From contig NZ_SKBU01000004.1 of NCBI RefSeq assembly GCF_004337705.1, forward strand, positions 1 to 64,000: a stretch of DNA of 64,000 nucleotides, written 5' to 3'. Below are positions 48,872-60,100 of this stretch, piece by piece. Origin of the DNA: Rubrobacter taiwanensis (GTDB lineage: Bacteria; Actinomycetota; Rubrobacteria; Rubrobacterales; Rubrobacteraceae). A model generated the notes under the pieces. The model saw nothing but the letters and a program-made list of their open reading frames with translations, did not search any database and was not told the DNA's origin. Made by a program: the position numbers and the translations under genes. Within the stretch, counting starts at the first letter, position 1; every line of letters begins with the position of its first letter.

Positions 48872-49371
48872 GCAGCGTCCGGGAAGAGGGCGGGCTCAAG
48901 GCGGAGCCGAAGGAGCGGCTAGACCCCCGGGCGAAGGCGCTCTGGCGCATCGTCGGCTCCTTCTGGGCACTCTTTCTGCTGGCACTGGGGAGTGCGGGGA
49001 CGGTGGTTCTCACGCTCGCCGGGGCTCCGGTTTACGTGGGTCTCCTGCCCGTACTGGGGGCTCTCGCTCTCGGGGTGCTCATCGTGGGGGTGATCCCGGC
49101 CGTGCTCTGGCGCCGGTGGCGCTACGAGGTGCGGGAGACCGAGATAGATCTTCAGCGGGGGTTGTTAAAGGTGCGGCGCACGCTCGTGCCGATGGCGCGG
49201 GTGCAGCACGTGGACACCCAGCACGGTCCGTTGCAGCGGGCGCTGGGGCTCTCTACCGTCATCTTCTACACGGCCGCCGGGCCGAACCAGATCCCGCAGC
49301 TCGCCGCACCCGTCGCGGCCGCCGTCCGGGACCGCATCGCCGAGCTTACCAAGACCCAAGATGAGCTCTGA
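48868..49371 (+). CDS. Bacterial PH-domain (bPH2/YdbS-like) membrane protein
   Basis: A 167-residue protein with two membrane helices ([39 protein letters not shown]) and one bPH2 domain: [40 protein letters not shown] and [13 protein letters not shown]. The start GTG overlaps the rlmN stop. With the larger following protein it resembles the YdbS/YdbT pair. Role in the envelope is unknown. Confidence 0.85.
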
Positions 49372-50845
49372 GCCCCGGGAGTTCCTGGAGCGTCCCGAGG
49401 CCTTCGGAAAGCCGACGGCCGAGCGGGAGCCGCCGCTTCTGGACCGGCACCTGCATCCGGTAGGCATGCTGCTGGACGCTCTGGGCACGATCCGGCAATG
49501 GATCGGCATCGCCGCCTTTCCCAGTCTCGCCGCCCTCTTCGGGGGCGGACTGCGGCCCGGCACGCTCGTCCTGATCGGCTTCTTCGCGGTGCTGCTGGTG
49601 GTGGGAGCGGCCGTGTGGGGCGTGCTCTCCTGGCGGGCTACGACCTACAGCGTGGCCGGGGACACCTTCACCCTGCGGCGCGGCGTGGTGCAGAAGAGCG
49701 AGCGCTCGCTGCGGCTGGAGCGCATCCAGTCGGTGGATACCGTGCAGGGGGTCATACAGCGCCTCTTCGGCGTGGTGGAGCTGCGAATAGAGACGGCCGG
49801 CGGCGGCTCCGAGCCGGACGTCCGGCTGCCGGCGCTCTCCCGGGAGACGGCGGAGGCGCTGCGGGAGCGGCTGACCCGGGTGCACCGGGAGACAGGGGGC
49901 GGAGAGGAGCCGGAGCGGGAGGTGCTCCGGACGCTGGGCGTCCGGGAGCTGCTGGTGGCCGGGGCGACTTCGGGCCAGGTCGGGGTCGCGGCTTCGCTGC
50001 TGGCCGGGGCCACGCAGTTCGTGCAGCAGGTTCTGCCGGAGACCCTGGCCGCCCGCCTCTTCGAGGCTATCCTGCCACGGGACGCCGGGACCGCGGTGCT
50101 CTACGTTGCGGCGCTGCTCGTCTTCGCGTGGCTGCTCGCCATCGGGGGGACTTTCCTCGCCTACTACGGATTTACGCTCTCCAGGTCCGGGGACCACCTG
50201 CACATCCGGCGCGGGCTGCTGAACCGCTACGAGGCCACCATCCCGCTGGCCCGCATCCAGGCGATCCGGGTCGTGGAGGGCGTGCTCCGGCAGCCGTTCG
50301 GGCTTGCTTACCTCCGGGTGGACAGCGCCGGGTACGGGGCGGAGGAGGGGACCTCTACCACGCTCTATCCACTGCTGCCGGTCAAGGAGGTCCCGGGGCT
50401 GCTGGAGGCAGCCGCACCCGAGTTCGCCGCGCCGGTGCAGGAGGTTGGGCCCGTGCCGCGGCGCGCACTGCGCCGGTACCTGATCCGGGCCGTCGTGCCG
50501 GTCTTGCTTTTGGCTGCTCCCCTCTCCTACTTCTTCTACCCGTGGGGGATGCTCGCCCTGCTGCTGGTCCTGCCGGCGGCGGTCCTCGGCTGGCTCAGGT
50601 TCCGGGCGGCGGGCTGGAACTACGCTTCCGAGCGGCTGACGGTCCGGTTCCGCAACCTGGCCCGCACGACGGTCGTGGTCCCGCGCCGGCGGTTGCAGTC
50701 ACGCACCGTCTCGCAGACGCCCTTCCAGCGTCGGCTGCACCTGGCCAGTCTGGAGGTGCAGGTGGCCTCCGGCTCCACCGGGGCCGGGTTCTCGGTGCTG
50801 GATATGGATGCGGACGACGCACTGAAGCTGCTCGCCCGGCTCTAG
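49361..50845 (+). CDS. Large bPH2-domain membrane protein (YdbT-like)
   Basis: A 494-residue protein with several helix pairs and three bPH2 repeats: TTYSVAGDTFTLRRGVVQKS with RLERIQSVDTVQGVIQRLFG; FTLSRSGDHLHIRRGLLNRY with PLARIQAIRVVEGVLRQPFG; and RLTVRFRNLARTTVVVPRRR with FQRRLHLASLEVQVASGSTG. It starts inside the end of the preceding gene (11-base overlap) and its stop overlaps the convergent sbcC by four bases. Function unknown; relatives are membrane proteins of Firmicutes. Confidence 0.87.
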   Translation: MSSEPREFLERPEAFGKPTAEREPPLLDRHLHPVGMLLDALGTIRQWIGIAAFPSLAALFGGGLRPGTLVLIGFFAVLLVVGAAVWGVLSWRATTYSVAGDTFTLRRGVVQKSERSLRLERIQSVDTVQGVIQRLFGVVELRIETAGGGSEPDVRLPALSRETAEALRERLTRVHRETGGGEEPEREVLRTLGVRELLVAGATSGQVGVAASLLAGATQFVQQVLPETLAARLFEAILPRDAGTAVLYVAALLVFAWLLAIGGTFLAYYGFTLSRSGDHLHIRRGLLNRYEATIPLARIQAIRVVEGVLRQPFGLAYLRVDSAGYGAEEGTSTTLYPLLPVKEVPGLLEAAAPEFAAPVQEVGPVPRRALRRYLIRAVVPVLLLAAPLSYFFYPWGMLALLLVLPAAVLGWLRFRAAGWNYASERLTVRFRNLARTTVVVPRRRLQSRTVSQTPFQRRLHLASLEVQVASGSTGAGFSVLDMDADDALKLLARL

Positions 50846-53694
50846 AGTATCCGCTCCAGATCGCTCTTTCCGGGCTTTAGAACGCGGGTGCGGCTCTTGT
50901 TCTCCCCGTCCTCCTCGACGAGCCAGATCTCGTCCAGGAGCGCCGATTCCTGCACGTCTACGACGTGGGAGATGATGAAGATCTGGCCGAAGGCCCGCTT
51001 GAGCCGGTCGAGGGCCAGGAGCACGTTGTGCCGCCGGTCGGAGTCCAGCGCGCCGAAGACCTCATCCAGCACGATAAATCCCAGAGCCTCCGAGTTGCGG
51101 GCCGAGATCATCTTGGAGAGGGAGACCCGCGCCGCCAGGCTCACGATGTCCGCCTCGCCGCCGGAGAACCGCTCTATGCCGTAGGCGTCCGAGAGGCCGT
51201 CGAAGAGCCGGAGCCCGTAGTTCTCGTCGAACTCGACCCGCTCGTACTTGCCGTCGGTGAGCATGCGGACGAGTTCGCTGGCCTCCCGCTCCAGCGCCGG
51301 GCGTGCGCGGCTGCTCAGCTCTACGTAGAACTCCTTGAAGAGCCGGTTCATCCGCTCCAGGCGCCCGGCCCGGGCGGCCTGCTCGTCGGCCCTCTTCCGG
51401 TCCGCGTCGTATTCCCGGAGCCTACCGGCGACGCTCTCCAGACGGTGTTCCAGGCGGGTGTGCTCCCGCTCCAGCTCGTGCAACCGCTCGCCGAGGGCAT
51501 CGCGCTGGAGCTCGGCCGCTCGCAGCCTCTCTCCGGCGGCCCGGTACTCCGCCTCGTTGAAGGCCAGTCCGGCCAGCCGGGCCTTCAGACTGGAGGCCCG
51601 TTCCCGGCAGCTCTTTCCGGCGGTCTCGGCCTCATCGAGCTCCCGCTCGATCCCGCCCCGGCGGGAGAGGTCGGCACGCAGGACCTCGACCCGGCCCCGG
51701 ACCCCCTCCAGGTGCGCCCTCTCCGCTTCGAGCCGCCGGTGCTCCTCCGCGTCGTAGGCGAGGTCCGCGAGCTGCCGGATCTCGTCCCGCAGCTCCGCGA
51801 CGGATTCCTCGGCGTCCCGGAAGGCCTGAATGCAGCTCGAGATCCCGGCCCCAGCTTCCCGCAGCCGGGTCAGCCACGCCACCCGGTCGGTGGCCCGCCG
51901 GATCTCCTCCTCCGCCGGAGGAGCGGCCGGAAGCTGCGCGCGCAGCTCCTCGACCCGCCGGCGGTCCCGGGCGAGGCTCTCCTCGGCGCTCTTGAGCCGG
52001 GCGGCGGTCTGCGTCCGCCGCTCCTTCAGGAGGGTGAGCTCGCGCAGCCTGCCCGCGACGCTCCGGAGGCGTCCGGAGACGGCGTCGGCCTCTTCCCGGA
52101 GGCGCCCGGCCTCCGCCAGGGCTTCGGCCGCCCGGTCGCGCAGTATCTTCGCCTGACGCTTCTGGGTCTCCACGACCGCCCGGTAGTCGTCGCCATCGAA
52201 CGGCCGGCGGCAGGTGGGGCACTCTCCCTCTGAGCCCGCCGCCTCCACGATCTCCCGGGCCCGGTCCAGGTTCGCCGCCTCCCGCCCGGCGGCCGCTGCC
52301 TCGCCCTCCAGAGCGGCGATCTTCTGCCGGAGATCCTCCTTGCGGCCGCGCAGCCTCTCCGAGAGAGCCTCCAGATCCTCTCCGCCCGAGACCTCCCGGA
52401 TCTCCTCCTCCACCGCGGACAGATCTTCCGCGAGCCCGGCCAGCGCCTCTTCCGCCCGCCGCAGCCCGGCCTCTTCCCGCTCGAGCTCCGCGTGGCGCCG
52501 TCCCAGGTCTTTAAGGCGGTGGAGGCGCTCCTCGGCGGCCCGCAGCGCGTCCGGAGCATGCCGGAGTACCCTGACGGCTTCGTGCATCTGTTCGGTCTCG
52601 TCCTCGATCCGGAGGACCGCCGCCCAGCCCGGCAGCGGCTCCTCGTCGAAGCCGTCCAGGTCCTCCAGCAGCCGGGAGGACCTCACCACGGCCTCCGCCG
52701 CCCGGCGGCGGGCGCGGCCGAGCTCCCGTTTTGCGCGCTCCCGGTCCTCGATCTGGCGGCGGGTCTCGTCCAGTCTCTTCAGCTCCCGCCCCACCCGGGG
52801 CAGGCGCTCCAGGGCGGGCCGGAGGCGCTCCAGTTCGCGCTCCGCTTCGTCCAGCTCCCGCAGGCGCTCCCGCAGCGCCTGTGCCCGGTCCGCCGCACGC
52901 TGCTCTCCGGCGCGCGCCTCCCGGAGCTCCGAGCTCAGGCGGTTGTGCTCCCGGTAGAGCTCCTCCAGCCGCTCCCGCTCCTGGCGGGCGGCGGCAAGCT
53001 CCGAGCTTGCGGCCTCGTGCTCCTTTCGAGCGGCGGCAAGGCGGAGCTGGAGCTCCGCCTTCTCCTCCCGGACGGCGGCGAGCTCCTCCTCCAGCCCTTC
53101 GCGATCTCTTCCCGCCAGCCGCGCTTCCAGGAACTCGGCGCGCTCCCTGACCTTCCGGCGCTCCTCGTTCAGCAGCTCCCGGGCGCGCTCGATCCGGCTG
53201 ATACCGAGCAGCCGCGCTACCTCCCGCTGGCGGCTGATGCCGGTCACGCCGGAGAAGAACTCCAGCTCCTTCTGGCGGGCGAAGAAGGTGGACTCGAACG
53301 CCTTCTGATCCATGCCCAGCAGGTGGTTCTGCACCCAGTCGGAGACTTCCCGCGGGCCGCTCAAGATCTCGCCCCCCATTCCGCTCAGCACCCGGGCCTG
53401 GGCCCGGCCGCTCTGCAGGGTCCGCTCGACGGTGTAGCGGCCGCCGCCGGTATCCAGCGTCACCCGCACGGCGGTCCTGTCCCGGCTGGAGCCGCCGCTC
53501 CAGGGGATCATGTCGTTCTTGAACCGCTCGCCGCCGGCCTGCGGGCCGAAGAAGGCCCAGAGGATGCTCTCGAAGAGCGTGGTCTTCCCGGCCCCGTTGG
53601 CACCCACAACCCCGATGGCTCCCTCCGGGGGCTCCAGCTCCAGCGGGTCGCGGAACTGCTTGTAGTTCTCCAGATACAGGCGCTCCAGGATCAC
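50842..53694 (-). CDS. sbcC: SbcC/Rad50 ATPase
   Basis: A 950-residue SMC-like protein. The N-terminal head has VVGANGAGKTTLFESILWAF (Walker A); long coiled coils run either side of a central zinc hook CPTCRRPF (about residue 490); the C-terminal head has ERFSGGEADIVSLAARVSLS (signature) and GFIVLDEVFGALDSDRR (Walker B, D-loop). With SbcD it opens and trims DNA ends. ATGA overlap with sbcD shows coupling. The ordering NurA-HerA-SbcD-SbcC resembles archaeal Mre11 operons. Confidence 0.94.
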   Translation of the reverse strand: MILERLYLENYKQFRDPLELEPPEGAIGVVGANGAGKTTLFESILWAFFGPQAGGERFKNDMIPWSGGSSRDRTAVRVTLDTGGGRYTVERTLQSGRAQARVLSGMGGEILSGPREVSDWVQNHLLGMDQKAFESTFFARQKELEFFSGVTGISRQREVARLLGISRIERARELLNEERRKVRERAEFLEARLAGRDREGLEEELAAVREEKAELQLRLAAARKEHEAASSELAAARQERERLEELYREHNRLSSELREARAGEQRAADRAQALRERLRELDEAERELERLRPALERLPRVGRELKRLDETRRQIEDRERAKRELGRARRRAAEAVVRSSRLLEDLDGFDEEPLPGWAAVLRIEDETEQMHEAVRVLRHAPDALRAAEERLHRLKDLGRRHAELEREEAGLRRAEEALAGLAEDLSAVEEEIREVSGGEDLEALSERLRGRKEDLRQKIAALEGEAAAAGREAANLDRAREIVEAAGSEGECPTCRRPFDGDDYRAVVETQKRQAKILRDRAAEALAEAGRLREEADAVSGRLRSVAGRLRELTLLKERRTQTAARLKSAEESLARDRRRVEELRAQLPAAPPAEEEIRRATDRVAWLTRLREAGAGISSCIQAFRDAEESVAELRDEIRQLADLAYDAEEHRRLEAERAHLEGVRGRVEVLRADLSRRGGIERELDEAETAGKSCRERASSLKARLAGLAFNEAEYRAAGERLRAAELQRDALGERLHELEREHTRLEHRLESVAGRLREYDADRKRADEQAARAGRLERMNRLFKEFYVELSSRARPALEREASELVRMLTDGKYERVEFDENYGLRLFDGLSDAYGIERFSGGEADIVSLAARVSLSKMISARNSEALGFIVLDEVFGALDSDRRHNVLLALDRLKRAFGQIFIISHVVDVQESALLDEIWLVEEDGENKSRTRVLKPGKSDLERIL

Positions 53695-54839
53695 GACGCC
53701 GCCCGCTCCTCTTCTGCGGCGCTCCGCAGGTACTCCACGCCGCGCTCCAGAAACTCGGCGGCGAACTCCTTCTCCAGCTCGCCGCGCTCCCGCCGGATCT
53801 CTACGAAGCTCCGCAGCTCCTCCTCCAGCGGGCCGAAGGCGGTCGCGGCCGGTTCGCCGGCGGCTTCCGGAGCGGTCTCAGCAGCGCTGATCTCCAGGCT
53901 GAAGTTGAGGCATCGGCTCCGGAGCTCCCGCAGCAGCTCGCGGTCCACCTCGCTGCCGGCCGGGGCGTTTACGACCTTCAGGCGCACGATGGCCCCGTTC
54001 AGCTCGACGGACTCCGCGCGCCGCCGGATCTCCTCGGTCAGCTCCGGACCGGAGAGCCCGCGGGCGTCTATCTTGGGGAGGTCCAGCATGGGGCGGGCGG
54101 GGAGCGGGACGTGCTCCACCCGCACCTCGCCGCCGGAGAAGTCCAGGATCACGAACCCGGTCTCGAAGTCCGCCTCGGCGAAGCTGAAGCGCTCGGTGGC
54201 CCCGGCGTAGTATGAGTTGTGGTTGTGCCGGTGGTGCTTGTGGTAGTGGCCCAGGGCCACGTAGTCGAAGCCCTGGTCCAGCACGCCCGGCGTCAGGTCC
54301 ACGTCGCCGAGCTCGTGGCCGTGGATCCTGAGCCCCGGCACCGTCCCGTGCGTAACCATGATGTTTATCTCCGCCGCCGGGTCCGGGCTCACGACGAGAT
54401 CCCGGTCCAGCACCGCGCCGTGGGGGACGAGGGCGAGCCCCACGGTCGTCTCTCCGGCCTGCGTGGAGTCGTACACCGGCTCGTAGCCGTGGGCGAAGCG
54501 GGCACCGAGCATGTTGGCGTACTCCAGCGCGGCAGTGGTGGAGCGCAGGCGCGGGGTTTCGTGGTTGCCGGCGATGCCGTAGTACGGGATGCCTTCCCGG
54601 AGGATGCGGTCCGTCTGCCGGAGGAAGTCTATGATCACGTGGGTGGCCGGGCGGATGGTGTCGAACACGTCGCCGGAGTGGACGACGAGGTCCACCTCAC
54701 GCCTCAGGATCTCCTCTACCGCCCGCCGGTAGGCTTCCCTGACGTCCACCTCCCGCTGGTTGCGGCTGGTCTCCGGGCAGAGCTTCGCGTACCGGCTGTA
54801 GCCCAGGTGCGTATCCGAGATGTGTGCGACCCTAACCAC
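53691..54839 (-). CDS. sbcD: SbcD/Mre11 nuclease
   Basis: About 382 residues. The calcineurin-like phosphoesterase motifs are VAHISDTHLGYS, VVHSGDVFDTI, YGIAGNHETPRL, IMVTHGTVPG and YVALGHYHKHHRHN. The GTG at 54839 overlaps the herA stop by 8 bases and puts the first motif at the N-terminus; a longer ATG start at 54923 would run deep into herA and is less likely. It is the Mn-dependent exo/endonuclease partner of SbcC. Confidence 0.93.
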   Translation of the reverse strand: MVRVAHISDTHLGYSRYAKLCPETSRNQREVDVREAYRRAVEEILRREVDLVVHSGDVFDTIRPATHVIIDFLRQTDRILREGIPYYGIAGNHETPRLRSTTAALEYANMLGARFAHGYEPVYDSTQAGETTVGLALVPHGAVLDRDLVVSPDPAAEINIMVTHGTVPGLRIHGHELGDVDLTPGVLDQGFDYVALGHYHKHHRHNHNSYYAGATERFSFAEADFETGFVILDFSGGEVRVEHVPLPARPMLDLPKIDARGLSGPELTEEIRRRAESVELNGAIVRLKVVNAPAGSEVDRELLRELRSRCLNFSLEISAAETAPEAAGEPAATAFGPLEEELRSFVEIRRERGELEKEFAAEFLERGVEYLRSAAEEERAAS

Positions 54840-56874
54840 GGCCCCGGTCGTCCTCCGGCGGACCGAAGCCGCGGCGGAAGGGAGAGTCTCCGAAGCCGAA
54901 CCCGCTCTCGCGTCCGAGCTCACGCTTGAGCATCCTGTAGGGGTCTCTCGTCCCGCCGTTGCGGCAGACAGCGGAGATCTTGTCCAGCAGCTCCAGGATC
55001 TGCTCCTCGGACGCTCCGGCTATGTCCTCCCGGATCTTGGGCAGGGGCGGGGGGCGGTGGTTGAGGCCGCGGAGGGTGCTCTGCACCGCTTCGGCCAGAT
55101 CCCCGCTCTTCGTTCCGAAGATGTCGGTGCCCTGCTTGCCCATCAGGACCGGCGGGCGCGGGAAGCGGCCGAAGACCGGCACGGCATAGTGGGCGTGGCG
55201 CAGCAAGAGGCGCCCCTTCTCCAACTGCAGCAGCTCATCGCGCGTGGTCTGGGAGAAGGAGCGGTAGCTGGCGTTCGTGATCTCCTCGTCTCCTATCCTG
55301 CCGTAGAGGCTGGTCGCGGCGTTGCCGATGACCTCCTCGTCCACCTTGCTGCGGAACTGCTGTGCCCCAAAGAGGGTGAGCCTGAGGTGGCGGCCCCGGG
55401 CTGAGATGTCTACGAGCGTGTCCTTGAGCGAGGAGCTCTTCGCCCCGGAGGGGGCGTACTTGTTCAGCTCGTCCACGAAGATTATGAGCTTGTCCACGTT
55501 CAATTCGCCCTTCTCGGCCTTCTCCCAGATGCTGCGGATCACGCTCGTCACGATGAGATCCTGGGGCACGCCGGAGAGCCGGGAGATGTCCACGACGCGC
55601 ATCTCCCGGTCTTCGAAGGGATCGTCCACCCGCGGGGCGTCGCCGTACTCCACCCGGCCGTGCACCAGCAGCCCGGCGCACTTGCTGGGCAGGTTGGAGA
55701 AGCGGTTGTAGGCCTTGGCTATGGTAGCCGTGTGGTGTCCCCTCCAGCCGGTGGCCTCCTTCTCGGCCATCTCCTCCTGGGCCCGGTCTATCTCGTCGAA
55801 GAGCTCGCTCATGGTCCGGACCCTCTGGGACCTCAGGTACTCCACAAACCCGCGGAACTTGTCGTCGTAGTCTGCGGGGTCGAAGACGTAGCCGGCGTAG
55901 GGCAGCACGTCGCCCAGCTCCCAGACGATGGGGTAGACGCACAGGCTCTCTCCGGGCGTGTTGCGCAGGGTGTTAAGGCGCCGGGGGGAGATCTCAGACA
56001 CCCGCACCTCCCGCTCTTTGGGGTCCATCCCGGGCCTTAGAGGGGCGAAGATCTTGAGGTTCTCGAACGGTTCCACGCGCAGGCCGAGGTCCTCATACAT
56101 CCTCCGCTCCTCGTCGGAGAGCCCCCTGACCCCGGCCTCCTCGTACCGGGCGGCGAGGGCGGGGTCGTCGGCGGGGGGCTCCACGGGTTTGTCCAGAAAG
56201 AGCAGGTCTGCGCCCTTGACGTTGAACATGAGCGCGGCCACCTTCTTCTTACCGGCGTTCTGGAAGATGCTCGCGATGGTGAAGAGCGCGTGGCTGGTCT
56301 TGGTGGAGAGGCCGCTCATGCCGGTTATGTTCATGTGGCCGGCCTCGGGGCCGAGCAGGTAATCCTCATCCACGTACAGCGGGGTGCGCTGCGGCGCGCC
56401 GCCCGCCTGGTTGCCGTTCTCGTGCAGGAGCATCGGGATCGGGGTTCCGGAGAAGTCTTCCCGGCCGAGGGCGAACTCTATGGCGGAGCGGGTGGCGAAG
56501 TATACCGGACCGCTGCGCACCGGACGCCGGGACTTCCCGTGCCCCGAGCGGTGCCGGGTAGCGAGTACACGGGCGCGGAAGACCAGGATCTCCACCCGCT
56601 CGGAGAGGGCTTCGAGGGCGGCGTCGCCGTCGCGGGCGTAGAAGTCGTCCAGGAAGCTGGCGAGGTCCGAGTAGCGCCGGGGGTCGTCCAGAACGGCGAC
56701 GGCCGTTGCATCCTCGGACTCGGCAGCGACGATGTGCCCGATGTCCAGCTTTCGGGCGGCCTCGGACTCCGCCGTCCAGAAGTAGAACTCGTGGGCGGTG
56801 GCTGGATACTCCTCGCTGGTCACGACCCGGCCCACGGGACCGGCGTCCAGATCCAGAAACTCCCTGTGCAGCAC
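54832..56874 (-). CDS. herA: HerA-family DNA translocase/ATPase
   Basis: A 680-residue HerA/FtsK-like ATPase (DUF87). A HAS-barrel-like N-terminus (AGPVGRVVTSEEYPATAHEF) precedes the ATPase. The nucleotide loop is MNITGMSGLSTKTSHALFTI, where the usual GxTGSGKT is replaced by SG-x-STKT; Walker B is KLIIFVDELNKYAPS; arginine-finger parts follow (DISARGRHLRLTLFGAQQFR). Hexameric HerA drives the NurA nuclease at DNA ends. The nurA gene ends 6 bases upstream and sbcD overlaps downstream. GTG start. Confidence 0.9.
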   Translation of the reverse strand: MLHREFLDLDAGPVGRVVTSEEYPATAHEFYFWTAESEAARKLDIGHIVAAESEDATAVAVLDDPRRYSDLASFLDDFYARDGDAALEALSERVEILVFRARVLATRHRSGHGKSRRPVRSGPVYFATRSAIEFALGREDFSGTPIPMLLHENGNQAGGAPQRTPLYVDEDYLLGPEAGHMNITGMSGLSTKTSHALFTIASIFQNAGKKKVAALMFNVKGADLLFLDKPVEPPADDPALAARYEEAGVRGLSDEERRMYEDLGLRVEPFENLKIFAPLRPGMDPKEREVRVSEISPRRLNTLRNTPGESLCVYPIVWELGDVLPYAGYVFDPADYDDKFRGFVEYLRSQRVRTMSELFDEIDRAQEEMAEKEATGWRGHHTATIAKAYNRFSNLPSKCAGLLVHGRVEYGDAPRVDDPFEDREMRVVDISRLSGVPQDLIVTSVIRSIWEKAEKGELNVDKLIIFVDELNKYAPSGAKSSSLKDTLVDISARGRHLRLTLFGAQQFRSKVDEEVIGNAATSLYGRIGDEEITNASYRSFSQTTRDELLQLEKGRLLLRHAHYAVPVFGRFPRPPVLMGKQGTDIFGTKSGDLAEAVQSTLRGLNHRPPPLPKIREDIAGASEEQILELLDKISAVCRNGGTRDPYRMLKRELGRESGFGFGDSPFRRGFGPPEDDRGRG

Positions 56875-56880
56875 TCTCCT

Positions 56881-58017
56881 CTATCCTCCCTGCAAGTTGG
56901 CTATCAGGCGTTCGAGCCGCGCCCGGGTGCGCCGCTGGTCCGCGACCAGGGGCTTGAGCATCTTCTCGACGTGGTGGATGGGGTAGATCATGGAGGCCCA
57001 GCGCGGATCGGGCCGGGCGAGCGGCACGCGCTCGGCCAGGAGCCAGCGCGTAATCTCGTCCATCTCCTCCGGCCGGGGATCCCGGCTGACCGCGAAGGTG
57101 CGCCGGATCTCCAGCCGGACGAGCCCTTCCATGGCGTCCGCTCCGTCCGGGGCGGGCATGAGCCGCACGTACCACGAGGCGCGTTCGTCTTCGGGGTGCC
57201 CGGCCGCGGCCCGCGCGACCTGCCACGGCGGGACGAAGGCGGTCGTGCGGCGGCCTGCTCCGAGCTCGAGTAGCATCCGGGCCTGCTCGCCGCCGAAGAA
57301 GAGCTTGCCGGAGCTCTTGGCGATCCCCACGGCCCGTTCTGCGGGTAGCGGGAGCTGTCCGTCGACCGCGATCCAGTCCCCGCCCGTCTCCAGAGCCGAC
57401 CAGCGCTCCAGCAGCAGCCGCTCCAGACCCTCCCGTAGCGAGCGGACCTTGGCCCGGGCCTGCTGCTTGAGCCCGGCGTAGTCTGCCGGGTCTGCTCCGG
57501 TGCCTTGCTGCGGGGTTGAGTCTGCGAGGACCATGGGGGCGCCGGCCGGGATCCGGCCGGGATCGCCGGGGAGAAGCGGTATGCCCGCCTCCAGCACCGC
57601 TTCGAAGAGCCGGCGGGCCCCGGAGCGGGGCAGCACGAGCGCCCGCAGGATCTGCGGCGCGCCGTCCAGCTCCATCCGGTGCAGCCGGCGCTCCCGCCGC
57701 TGCGCGACGGCTGCGGCGACGGTGGCCAGAACGATCGGGACGGTTCCCGCCCGGCCGAGTTCGTAGGTCACCTGCACCCCGTCCAGAAAGTAAGCCAGCC
57801 GGGAGGAGCCGTCCGGATCTCCCGGGTGACGCTCGGTGACCGGGTCTGCCTCGAACGCTTCCACGGCGTCCCCCCCGCGGGGGTGCTCGGTCTCTCCCGG
57901 GAGCTCCGGCTCCAGCTGCCCGCCGCCCGCGCTCAGGCGCACCCCGCTCCGGCGGGCTGCCTGAAATGCCTCTTTCAGCCGGTCTACGAAGTCGGCCGTC
58001 GATCCTCCGCTGCGCAT
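56881..58017 (-). CDS. nurA: NurA-family 5'-3' nuclease
   Basis: A 378-residue protein with NurA features: RLAYFLDGVQVTYELGRAGT (first catalytic Asp), GDWIAVDGQLPLPAERAVGI (second Asp), and the C-terminal MIYPIHHVEKMLKPLVADQR that forms part of the active site and HerA contact. The HerA gene begins 6 bases after its stop. In archaea NurA and HerA resect DNA ends that Mre11-Rad50 prepare. It is less conserved than HerA, so the call rests on motifs and context together. Confidence 0.85.
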   Translation of the reverse strand: MRSGGSTADFVDRLKEAFQAARRSGVRLSAGGGQLEPELPGETEHPRGGDAVEAFEADPVTERHPGDPDGSSRLAYFLDGVQVTYELGRAGTVPIVLATVAAAVAQRRERRLHRMELDGAPQILRALVLPRSGARRLFEAVLEAGIPLLPGDPGRIPAGAPMVLADSTPQQGTGADPADYAGLKQQARAKVRSLREGLERLLLERWSALETGGDWIAVDGQLPLPAERAVGIAKSSGKLFFGGEQARMLLELGAGRRTTAFVPPWQVARAAAGHPEDERASWYVRLMPAPDGADAMEGLVRLEIRRTFAVSRDPRPEEMDEITRWLLAERVPLARPDPRWASMIYPIHHVEKMLKPLVADQRRTRARLERLIANLQGG

Positions 58018-58058
58018 TACCAGAGAGTATACGCAGCGGGTGGTCGGAATTCAGCGGC

Positions 58059-58658
58059 TCAGGGCTTCGGGGGAGCGTCCGGAGCTCGTTCCGGCGGCGG
58101 TACCGGCAGCTCGAACTGCCGCCCGGCCAGCGCGACTGCGCGCCGGAAGCTGCGCCGCTCCGCGGGGGTCTCCCCGTATGCCCCGCGGGCCATCCTGAGG
58201 ATTCTGCGGGCCTCGCCGCGCTGCTTTTCGTCGTTGGAGAGCTGTTTGGAGAACTCGTAGACGAGGTCGCCGCTCTCCGCCCGGTAGAAGTGGAGGTAGA
58301 GGTCCTTCTGTTTGCCGAGACCGGTGAGGACGGCATCCCCGCTTACCTGCGCGACGTCCAGCACGGCGGCGGCGCTCAGGGGCTCGCCGTCCGGCGGGTA
58401 GGCGCTGAGTGCCAGGCGTACCACGGGGCCGTAGGAGGTCTTGTAGAGCTCGAGGCGCCGCACGAGCGAGACTCTCCCCCGGATGCGCTCTATGTCTCTC
58501 CTCTCCGCCGCGACCACGACGTGCGCCTGCGGCGGCCGCATGGAGGTGCGCGTCTGGGCAGCTACCACCCGCGCCTGCGGCCCCTGCTCCGCCGCCGCGG
58601 CGGCGATGCTCTGCCGGACGCGGTCGGGCAGCCTTAGTCCGCCGGTCTTCTCGCTCAC
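58059..58658 (-). CDS. Unknown protein in the nurA-herA operon, 199 aa
   Basis: A soluble, basic protein with LELYKTSYGPVVRLALSAYP, QKDLYLHFYRAESGDLVYEF and a Pro-rich tail. It starts with ATGA overlap on the dipeptidase gene and ends 41 bases before nurA, so it is in the operon. No known motif is visible. It could be an accessory of the repair complex, which cannot be shown from sequence. Confidence 0.7.
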   Translation of the reverse strand: MSEKTGGLRLPDRVRQSIAAAAAEQGPQARVVAAQTRTSMRPPQAHVVVAAERRDIERIRGRVSLVRRLELYKTSYGPVVRLALSAYPPDGEPLSAAAVLDVAQVSGDAVLTGLGKQKDLYLHFYRAESGDLVYEFSKQLSNDEKQRGEARRILRMARGAYGETPAERRSFRRAVALAGRQFELPVPPPERAPDAPPKP

Positions 58659-60007
58659 CGCTCTCCGAACTTCCTGAAGAGGGTGGCGAAGTATTCCACG
58701 GTCTCGAAGTAATCTTCGAGCCGCGTGGACTCGTTGGGGGAATGGATGCGACTCCCCGCCCAGGCCACGCTCCCGGTCATCACGGTCGGGATGCCGAGGT
58801 CGGTGGCGATGAACGAGGTGGGACCGCTGCCGCCGACGGTAGGGTAGACCACGGCGTCGTCCCGCCCGATCTCCCGCCAGCTCTCGACCGCCAGCCGCAC
58901 CACCGGGCTGTCCACCGGGGTCTTGGCAGGCTCCAGACCGCCGAGGTCCACTATCTCCACATCCTCGAACCCGCGGCGGTCCAGATGTTCGCGCAGGAGC
59001 TGCATCACCCGTCGCGGGCTCTGGCCGCTGACGAGCCGGAAGTCCATCTTTACGAAGGCCTCGGAGGGCACTATCGTCTTGGAGCCAGGACCGGTGTAGC
59101 CGGAGTGCATCCCGGCGATGTTCGCCGTCGGGCGCAGCAGCAGCTCGCGCAGCAGGGCGTCGCCGGTGAGGCCGCGGTCGAAGGCTTCGACGTTCCAGGA
59201 GGCCCTAAGAGCTTCTTCGTCGAAGGGTATCTCCTCTATGGCGCGCAGGTCTAGCTCGGTCGGCGGATCGGCGAGCTCGTGCAGGCCGTCGAGCGTGATC
59301 TCGCCCGTCTCGTCCTTGATGGTCCTCAGGGCCTGCACCAGCCGCCAGGCCGGATTGGGCGCTATGCCACCGTACATGCTGTGCAGGTCGTGGGAGGCTC
59401 CCTTCGCCCGCAGCTCCACGTAGAGCATCCCCTTGGTGCCGCAGAAGATCAGGGGCCGTCCGGACTCGTCCTGCATCGAGCCCTCCCACAGGCAGGCGTC
59501 GGCGCGCAGCAGGTCGGCGTTCTCGCGCACGAACTTCCCTAGCGAGGGGCTGCCGACCTCCTCCTCGCCTTCTATGAGGAACTTCAGCCGGAACGGGGGC
59601 TCGCCGAACACCTCCCGGTAGAGCCTGAGGGCCTGGATGCGGGCCAGCACATCACCCTTGTCATCGGCCACTCCCCGGGCGAAGAGCTTGCTGTCCCTCA
59701 CTTCCGGCTCGAACGGGTCGCTCTCCCAGAGCTCCAGCGGCTCGGGGGGCTGCACGTCGTAGTGACCGTAGGAGAGGAGCGTCCTCTCGCCTTGCCCGAT
59801 CTCGGCGTAGACCACCGGATGTCCGGCGGTCTCCATCAGGCGCGCCTCGGCTCCGGCCTCGCGCAGCTTGCGGGCCACCCACTCTGCGCACTCGCGGAAC
59901 CGGGCGCCGCCCTGCGCGGAGACCGAGGGGATGCGCAGGAACTCCTTTAGCTCCTCCAGAAGATCCTCCCGGGATCTCTCTATCTTATCCTTCAGCTCTT
60001 GCGCCAT
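58655..60007 (-). CDS. M20-family metallopeptidase (dipeptidase)
   Basis: A 450-residue M20 peptidase. Zinc ligands are seen in LLSYGHYDVQPPEPLELW (His, Asp), VADDKGDVLARI, FLIEGEEEVGSPSLG (Glu pair) and near the C-terminus GSVAWAGSRIHSPNEST (His). The ATG at 60007 follows GGAGGTG. It resembles CPDG2/PepV-like dipeptidases that cleave short peptides in the cytosol. It is first in the repair operon, which may be chance. Confidence 0.92.
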   Translation of the reverse strand: MAQELKDKIERSREDLLEELKEFLRIPSVSAQGGARFRECAEWVARKLREAGAEARLMETAGHPVVYAEIGQGERTLLSYGHYDVQPPEPLELWESDPFEPEVRDSKLFARGVADDKGDVLARIQALRLYREVFGEPPFRLKFLIEGEEEVGSPSLGKFVRENADLLRADACLWEGSMQDESGRPLIFCGTKGMLYVELRAKGASHDLHSMYGGIAPNPAWRLVQALRTIKDETGEITLDGLHELADPPTELDLRAIEEIPFDEEALRASWNVEAFDRGLTGDALLRELLLRPTANIAGMHSGYTGPGSKTIVPSEAFVKMDFRLVSGQSPRRVMQLLREHLDRRGFEDVEIVDLGGLEPAKTPVDSPVVRLAVESWREIGRDDAVVYPTVGGSGPTSFIATDLGIPTVMTGSVAWAGSRIHSPNESTRLEDYFETVEYFATLFRKFGER

Positions 60008-60100
60008 TTCCACACCTCCGCTTCGCTCTTCTGAAGGGTAGCATCCCCGGGTTTCGAGGCTAGCCGCCACACGTGATTACTGTTATATTTAAACGGGATC

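Follow-up and report, generated by a model that had tools for sequence, protein, structure and literature searches.

The nurA-herA-sbcD-sbcC cluster

A compact run of four genes, nurA, herA, sbcD (mre11) and sbcC (rad50), is located on the minus strand of the genomic segment of Rubrobacter taiwanensis analyzed here (hereinafter the window), which covers the first 64,000 nucleotides of contig NZ_SKBU01000004.1. Rubrobacter is a soil bacterium of the radiation-tolerant type, and the family Rubrobacteraceae includes radiation-tolerant members. Throughout the text, G numbers are our working labels for genomes (G000 is the window genome) and L numbers are those for loci. The first gene, nurA (56881..58017, ATG start), codes for a bacterial-type NurA nuclease of 378 aa with a predicted RNaseH-like fold. 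It is followed by herA (54832..56874, GTG start), which encodes a bacterial-type HerA hexameric DNA translocase of 680 aa, sbcD (53691..54839, GTG start), which encodes a predicted archaeal-type Mre11 nuclease of 382 aa, and sbcC (50842..53694, GTG start), which encodes a predicted archaeal-type Rad50 ATPase of 950 aa with a zinc hook. The nurA and herA genes are separated by 6 bases, herA and sbcD overlap by 8 bases, and sbcD and sbcC overlap by 4 bases. The sbcD start was set at 54839, which fits the homologs and the DTHLG motif, in preference to the GTG at 54923 in the list of open reading frames. At 67-73%, the four genes are close in GC content to the window as a whole (68%). The initial annotation, made from the sequence alone, had described the same compact, unidirectional genes in a likely Rubrobacter host; the host is indeed a member of Rubrobacteraceae, and the 6-base gap and 8-base overlap are correct, whereas the reported ATGA overlap reads GTGA. 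The four-gene arrangement is confirmed, and because the gene order recurs across Rubrobacteraceae, it is not a chance arrangement.

NurA is difficult to recognize by sequence. No matches to NurA were found in sequence-only scans of the Pfam, NCBIfam and PADLOC libraries, and in particular, the window protein does not match the Pfam NurA family (PF09376) at the gathering score, a threshold that is reached by homologous NurA proteins of other Actinomycetota (L136 and L128). The similarity to Deinococcus radiodurans NurA was detected by phmmer with an expectation value (E) of only 0.02. Because these library searches found nothing, the structure of NurA was predicted with AlphaFold using 19 homologs (predicted local distance difference test score, pLDDT, of 82). 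In the Foldseek search, the model matched D. radiodurans NurA (7f6d; E 5.5e-11, probability 1.0) and Thermotoga TM1739 (1zup; E 5e-9, probability 1.0), and nothing else was convincing, with the next match at 0.1. The identity to D. radiodurans NurA is about 17% over the fold match. In the phmmer alignment, K234 corresponds to D. radiodurans K201 and R339 to R309, a mapping that assumes a 20-residue tag in the 7f6d chain numbering (chain K221 and R329), whereas D79 is equated with D53 by position, without a residue alignment. All three residues are invariant across the 19 homologs, and both K201 and R309 are required for cleavage by the D. radiodurans enzyme (PMC9960219). The structure search, which the initial annotation had named as a test of the NurA assignment, favored it, and the assignment is confirmed by the predicted RNaseH-like NurA fold and the retention of the putative catalytic residues.

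HerA is readily aligned with its D. radiodurans homolog (E 1.7e-36), and the Walker A (K192/T193) and Walker B (D468/E469) residues are invariant among 18 homologs. No Pfam or NCBIfam match to the archaeal HerA models (DUF87, PF01935) was obtained. A viral source for HerA was considered and rejected, as the search found no relatives on viral contigs. SbcD matches the Metallophos family (E 5e-15) and the Mre11 models (E 1.6e-25) and contains all the Mre11 phosphodiesterase motifs (DxH, GD, GNHE, H and GHxH), with D9, H11, D57, N92-H93-E94, H164, H198 and H200 invariant in 15 sequences. SbcC matches AAA_23 (E 2e-17) and contains the CxxC zinc hook; the search for SbcC-like ATPases gave a single strong match only. 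The four gene identities proposed in the initial annotation are thus all borne out by profile, structure and residue evidence.

Two ancestries in one gene cluster

The Rubrobacter Mre11 and Rad50 show affinity with the archaeal rather than the bacterial forms of these proteins. Among the NCBIfam models, those for archaeal Mre11 outscore the bacterial SbcD model, SbcC matches the Rad50 models with E 5e-52 vs 3e-18 for the SbcC model, and the top Protein Data Bank (PDB) matches are Methanocaldococcus jannaschii Mre11 and Rad50, respectively. In the Mre11 tree, Rubrobacter, the archaeal-type operons of small-genome Actinomycetota described below and M. jannaschii form one group (support 100/99), with the bacterial-type clusters, canonical actinobacterial SbcD and T. 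maritima on the opposite side; the Rad50 tree shows the same division (support 96/92). A point that counts against this placement is that the archaeal rows in both trees are fragments of few sequences (M. jannaschii and P. furiosus) taken from alignments; long branches were also flagged. Because of these features of the trees, the archaeal affinity rests also on the model scores and the PDB ranks. A further Mre11 tree, which is without an archaeal outgroup, by itself cannot place the Rubrobacter protein on either side, so weight is put on the trees that contain archaea and on the model scores. By these measures, Rubrobacter Mre11-Rad50 is closer to the archaeal type than to bacterial SbcCD.

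Profile-profile comparison with hhalign points to a different affinity for the other two proteins. The SbcD profile aligns with the archaeal type at 1.4e-69 and with the bacterial type at 1.5e-20. The HerA and NurA profiles match the bacterial type (1e-45 and 7.7e-16, respectively), with probabilities of only 0.9% and 0.6% for the archaeal type. Thus, the Rubrobacteraceae cluster is a hybrid that combines bacterial-type NurA-HerA with archaeal-type Mre11-Rad50. The operon had initially been described as archaeal-style and trees of its proteins had been proposed; the archaeal grouping holds for Mre11 and Rad50 but does not extend to HerA and NurA. Acquisition of the complete operon from a thermophilic archaeon, with the products working in the archaeal way, would account for the presence of the same four genes as in archaeal operons (PMC2288612), for the archaeal-type Mre11 and Rad50, and for the occurrence of archaeal-type operons in other Actinomycetota. 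We nevertheless regard this origin as highly improbable because HerA and NurA align with Deinococcus and other bacterial homologs and not with the archaeal type, and the profiles already contradict it.

Three kinds of clusters can be distinguished in Actinomycetota. In the first, archaeal-type NurA (PF09376 above the cut-off) and HerA (PF01935) are encoded in one gene run with Mre11 and Rad50. The carriers (G251, G043, G066, G213 and G174) are Actinomycetota with small genomes (1.3-1.8 Mb), and Pfam NurA and DUF87 are above the cut-off in all five loci scanned (L195, L198, L199, L202 and L210); L200 (G154) has the same gene layout. These loci encode the nearest relatives found of Rubrobacter Mre11 and Rad50 (E about 1e-64 to 1e-74 for Mre11) and differ from the Rubrobacter cluster in the archaeal type of their NurA and HerA. 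In the second kind, bacterial-type HerA, identified with the HerA profile in 76 further genomes of the approximately 360 Actinomycetota sampled, is encoded near NurA and/or SbcD or SbcC in most of the 20 loci that were read. In the cases scanned (L133, L140, L142 and L143), SbcD and, where scanned, SbcC are canonical bacterial proteins, with TIGR00619 and TIGR00618 as the best models. The third kind, that of Rubrobacteraceae, combines NurA-HerA of the second kind with Mre11-Rad50 of the first. A single-sequence search (0/60 other genomes) had indicated that NurA was restricted to Rubrobacteraceae, a conclusion overturned by the 76 genomes recovered with the HerA profile. We also observed archaeal-like Mre11-Rad50 pairs without recognizable NurA-HerA neighbors in other Actinomycetota (L204-L209 and L212, for example, a second pair in G113).

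Four-gene sets of the second kind are found also on plasmids of Streptomyces, the cyanobacterium Sphaerospermopsis and Candidatus Chlorohelix (Chloroflexota). These plasmids, together with the 76 genomes and the published bacterial NurA-HerA (PMC9960219, PMC5448004, PMC8708640), show that such genes are not unusual in bacteria, contrary to what had been assumed at first. The Streptomyces (L140) and Chlorohelix (L143) plasmid clusters adjoin Wadjet-type genes (TIGR02680, TIGR02678 and DUF2397), ImmA/IrrE peptidases, and a restriction endonuclease or TIR protein, which hints at a defense or mobile role for the plasmid clusters.

The question arises whether the Rubrobacter cluster itself is an anti-phage defense module akin to other systems based on HerA or SMC proteins. 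Apart from the neighborhoods of the related plasmid clusters, such a role would be in line with the PADLOC matches to the MADS system, of HerA to mad8 (1.7e-8) and of SbcC to mad3 (6.5e-23). However, these matches look to be at the level of shared domains (SMC and FtsK-HerA ATPases), no defense-specific subunit is present, relatives on viral contigs were not found, and essentially the whole family carries one syntenic copy, so that a defense function seems quite unlikely.

Predicted end resection in Rubrobacteraceae

NurA is encoded in 37 of the 39 Rubrobacteraceae genomes, including all 22 with at least 90% completeness and at most 5% contamination, and HerA in 35 of the 39, the missing cases being incomplete or fragmented assemblies. 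The order M20 peptidase-ORF199-nurA-herA-(insert)-sbcD-sbcC is held in every locus with an adequate contig. Thus, the cluster is core to Rubrobacteraceae. Only in the window genome are herA and sbcD tightly coupled: instead of the 8-base overlap, the relatives have 72-3,600 bp between these genes, and in many loci with a gap of at least 133 bp, sbcD is preceded, as judged by eye, by a site resembling TAGAAT or AGAAT and by a ribosome site of the GGA type. Most relatives carry an insert and a distinct promoter-like site ahead of sbcD; co-transcription of all four genes is thus plausible in the window genome, where herA and sbcD touch, but strict co-transcription is not a family rule. Variable cargo has been inserted into this interval in L042, L043, L045, L052, L054, L057, L058, L059 and L060, where, by inspection only, we noted methyltransferase, restriction-like nuclease, toxin-antitoxin-like, RelA-like, lipoate-ligase-like and ASCH-like genes.

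These intervals and the separate TAGAAT-like site in most relatives would also be expected if the two pairs were independent neighbors, with SbcCD acting on hairpins or covalent adducts as in Escherichia coli and NurA-HerA acting at replication forks or in recombination; in Thermus, the genes around the nurA-hepA pair indeed have no relation to DNA metabolism (PMC5448004). Conversely, the family-wide gene order survives repeated insertions, the two pairs are joined by the 8-base overlap in the window genome, and archaeal Mre11 binds HerA (PMC2288612). On balance, independence of the pairs appears unlikely to us.

The other pathways of break repair are sparsely represented in the family. A search for UvrD-family proteins in the window genome, which is 99.7% complete, detected one helicase (a 721-aa frame), and G008 and G019, both complete genomes in a single contig, also gave one each. 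Because only one such helicase is present, we conclude that the window genome lacks RecBCD, AddAB and AdnAB, the enzymes that the initial annotation had proposed to look for. In the same search, AdnAB-like adjacent pairs of approximately 1,000-1,300 codons were detected in G004, G010, G016 and G021, and pairs or fragments in G007, G012 and G024, that is, in roughly 7 of the 39 Rubrobacteraceae genomes (5 of the 22 best), with the pairs called from size and adjacency rather than with a dedicated AdnAB model. The patchy distribution of these pairs beside the constant presence of NurA-HerA is suggestive of repeated loss or gain. Most Rubrobacteraceae have only weak matches, or none, to RecB-type nuclease domains (the window genome has a single PDDEXK_1 match, E 3.7e-13), whereas nearly all other Actinomycetota match strongly. 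Ku was not found in any of the 39 Rubrobacteraceae genomes, an absence already noted for R. radiotolerans (PMC4148983), whereas RecJ is present in 36 and RecO in 37. RecFOR, RecJ and SbcCD are listed in the paper on the R. radiotolerans genome, whose text does not mention NurA (PMC4148983).

Given that RecBCD, AddAB, AdnAB and Ku are missing from the window genome and from most Rubrobacteraceae, we consider it probable that the cluster encodes a machine of hybrid ancestry for the resection of double-strand break ends and, together with RecJ, provides the main route from breaks to recombination. In the proposed mechanism, archaeal-type Mre11-Rad50 (SbcD-SbcC) would recognize and trim the broken ends, the bacterial-type HerA hexamer would pump the duplex into the NurA dimer, and NurA would cut the 5' strand, leaving a 3' tail onto which RecA would be loaded by RecFOR. 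The biochemical activity of the Rubrobacter proteins is predicted by analogy with D. radiodurans NurA-HerA and with archaeal and bacterial Mre11-Rad50. The activity of bacterial NurA-HerA on DNA ends has been published: in D. radiodurans, hexameric HerA translocates the duplex and delivers it to the NurA dimer, which digests the 5' strand as the DNA moves (PMC9960219). In archaea, both HerA and Rad50 are interaction partners of Mre11 (PMC2288612). For Rubrobacteraceae, we infer that the two pairs cooperate and that the four-gene set is primary in repair. Accordingly, of the earlier suggestion that breaks are resected in the archaeal way, with or instead of RecBCD/AddAB, the part on the absence of RecBCD/AddAB stands, and the archaeal character of the system as a whole does not.

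Several observations weigh against this proposal. The D. radiodurans HerA arginines R495 and R552, both of which are required for translocation, correspond to S/A476 and N534 in Rubrobacter. Although both matter for function in D. radiodurans, they are not known to be a defining feature of bacterial HerA as a whole, and a lysine or arginine at position 479, three residues on from 476, might substitute; position 479 is nonetheless alanine in one relative. In most relatives, sbcD is preceded by an insert and has a promoter-like site of its own, which speaks against obligatory co-expression of the two pairs. Finally, D. radiodurans remains almost as radioresistant when nurA or herA is lost (PMC9960219, PMC5448004), and because the Deinococcus mutants show such weak effects, what bacterial NurA-HerA does has been described as controversial (PMC9960219). 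The link of the cluster to radiation tolerance is weak. An evolutionary extension of the hybrid resection scheme is that bacterial-type NurA-HerA replaced an archaeal-type pair beside archaeal-type Mre11-Rad50, that the two halves cooperate physically, and that they took over primary resection, which allowed AdnAB and Ku to be lost; we put this scenario forward only tentatively, as possible but rather doubtful.

The bacterial NurA-HerA pair is known from Deinococcus and Thermus (PMC9960219, PMC5448004), and Actinobacteria have already been counted among its carriers in a review (PMC8708640). By fold and profile, NurA and HerA of Rubrobacter fall into the subfamilies of their D. radiodurans (7f6d) counterparts, with the NurA D/K/R residues and the Walker motifs kept, and D. 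radiodurans similarly has no RecBCD/AddAB and depends on RecFOR and RecJ (PMC9960219). However, the Rubrobacter pair is linked to Mre11-Rad50, does not retain R495/R552 and is distant in sequence. The nurA-herA-mre11-rad50 operons of Sulfolobus and Pyrococcus share with the Rubrobacter cluster the combination of four functions and the archaeal-type Mre11 and Rad50, whereas Rubrobacter NurA and HerA are of the bacterial type, without matches to Pfam NurA or DUF87. In Oceanithermus profundus, where sbcD-sbcC follow hepA (PMC5448004), and in the chromosomal and plasmid clusters L133, L140, L142 and L143, genes for bacterial-type NurA/HerA also adjoin those for SbcD/SbcC; in the latter four clusters, which are the ones compared here, SbcD (and SbcC where scanned) is canonical bacterial, unlike in Rubrobacter. 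Bacterial NurA-HerA and the four-gene order were already known. As far as could be found, what is new is the hybrid make-up, its fixation throughout the family together with a conserved promoter-like element, the setting among the other repair pathways and, in other Actinomycetota, the operons of archaeal type. No paper that covers HerA, NurA and Rubrobacter together was found in a literature search with thin coverage of subscription journals.

How recombination starts in bacteria that lack RecBCD, AddAB and AdnAB is an unsettled question, and Rubrobacteraceae, which lack Ku, for the most part lack AdnAB and carry their candidate resection genes in one conserved cluster, offer a cleaner test. 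The hybrid ancestry implies that the halves of the archaeal operon may be exchangeable independently, and therefore raises the question whether Mre11-Rad50 and NurA-HerA need to match each other as partners. Since all three combinations are found in one phylum, a comparative experiment is possible.

Promoter-like element and neighboring genes

A TATACT motif (TATAAT in one case) is located 6-9 nt, usually 7 nt, before the nurA start codon in all 19 Rubrobacteraceae loci that were read. The element mostly reads GCGTATACT, and in the window it occupies positions 58026..58034 of the minus strand, 8 nt before the nurA start codon; a TAGTCT-like element is found farther upstream in most loci. No other TATACT in the window lies 6-8 nt ahead of an ATG or GTG codon; 0.27 such placements were expected. 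These features suggest a dedicated nurA promoter and a predicted leaderless nurA transcript. Among the other regulatory scans, the actinobacterial LexA-type box showed no signal (17 one-mismatch matches in the window vs 17.2 expected), and the generic sigma-70 and terminator scans near the cluster were uninformative.

Immediately upstream of nurA, ORF199 (58059..58658, minus strand) encodes a protein of 199 aa that is unique to Rubrobacteraceae, where it is present in 37 of the 39 genomes, with no match elsewhere at E<1e-3 in a profile search of 396 Actinomycetota genomes. Its structural model is confident (pLDDT 87) and has no fold match in the PDB; the attempt to identify this protein yielded neither a family nor a fold. 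In L050 and L053, ORF199 is 1.1-1.5 kb away, and the TATACT element is still found with nurA. ORF199 is thus a linked, family-specific neighbor of nurA and an unproven, putative member of the system only. An M20 peptidase gene (58655-60070) lies upstream of ORF199 in the same direction as the cluster, and a gene for a bPH_2 protein (49361-50845), located downstream of sbcC, is convergent with it.

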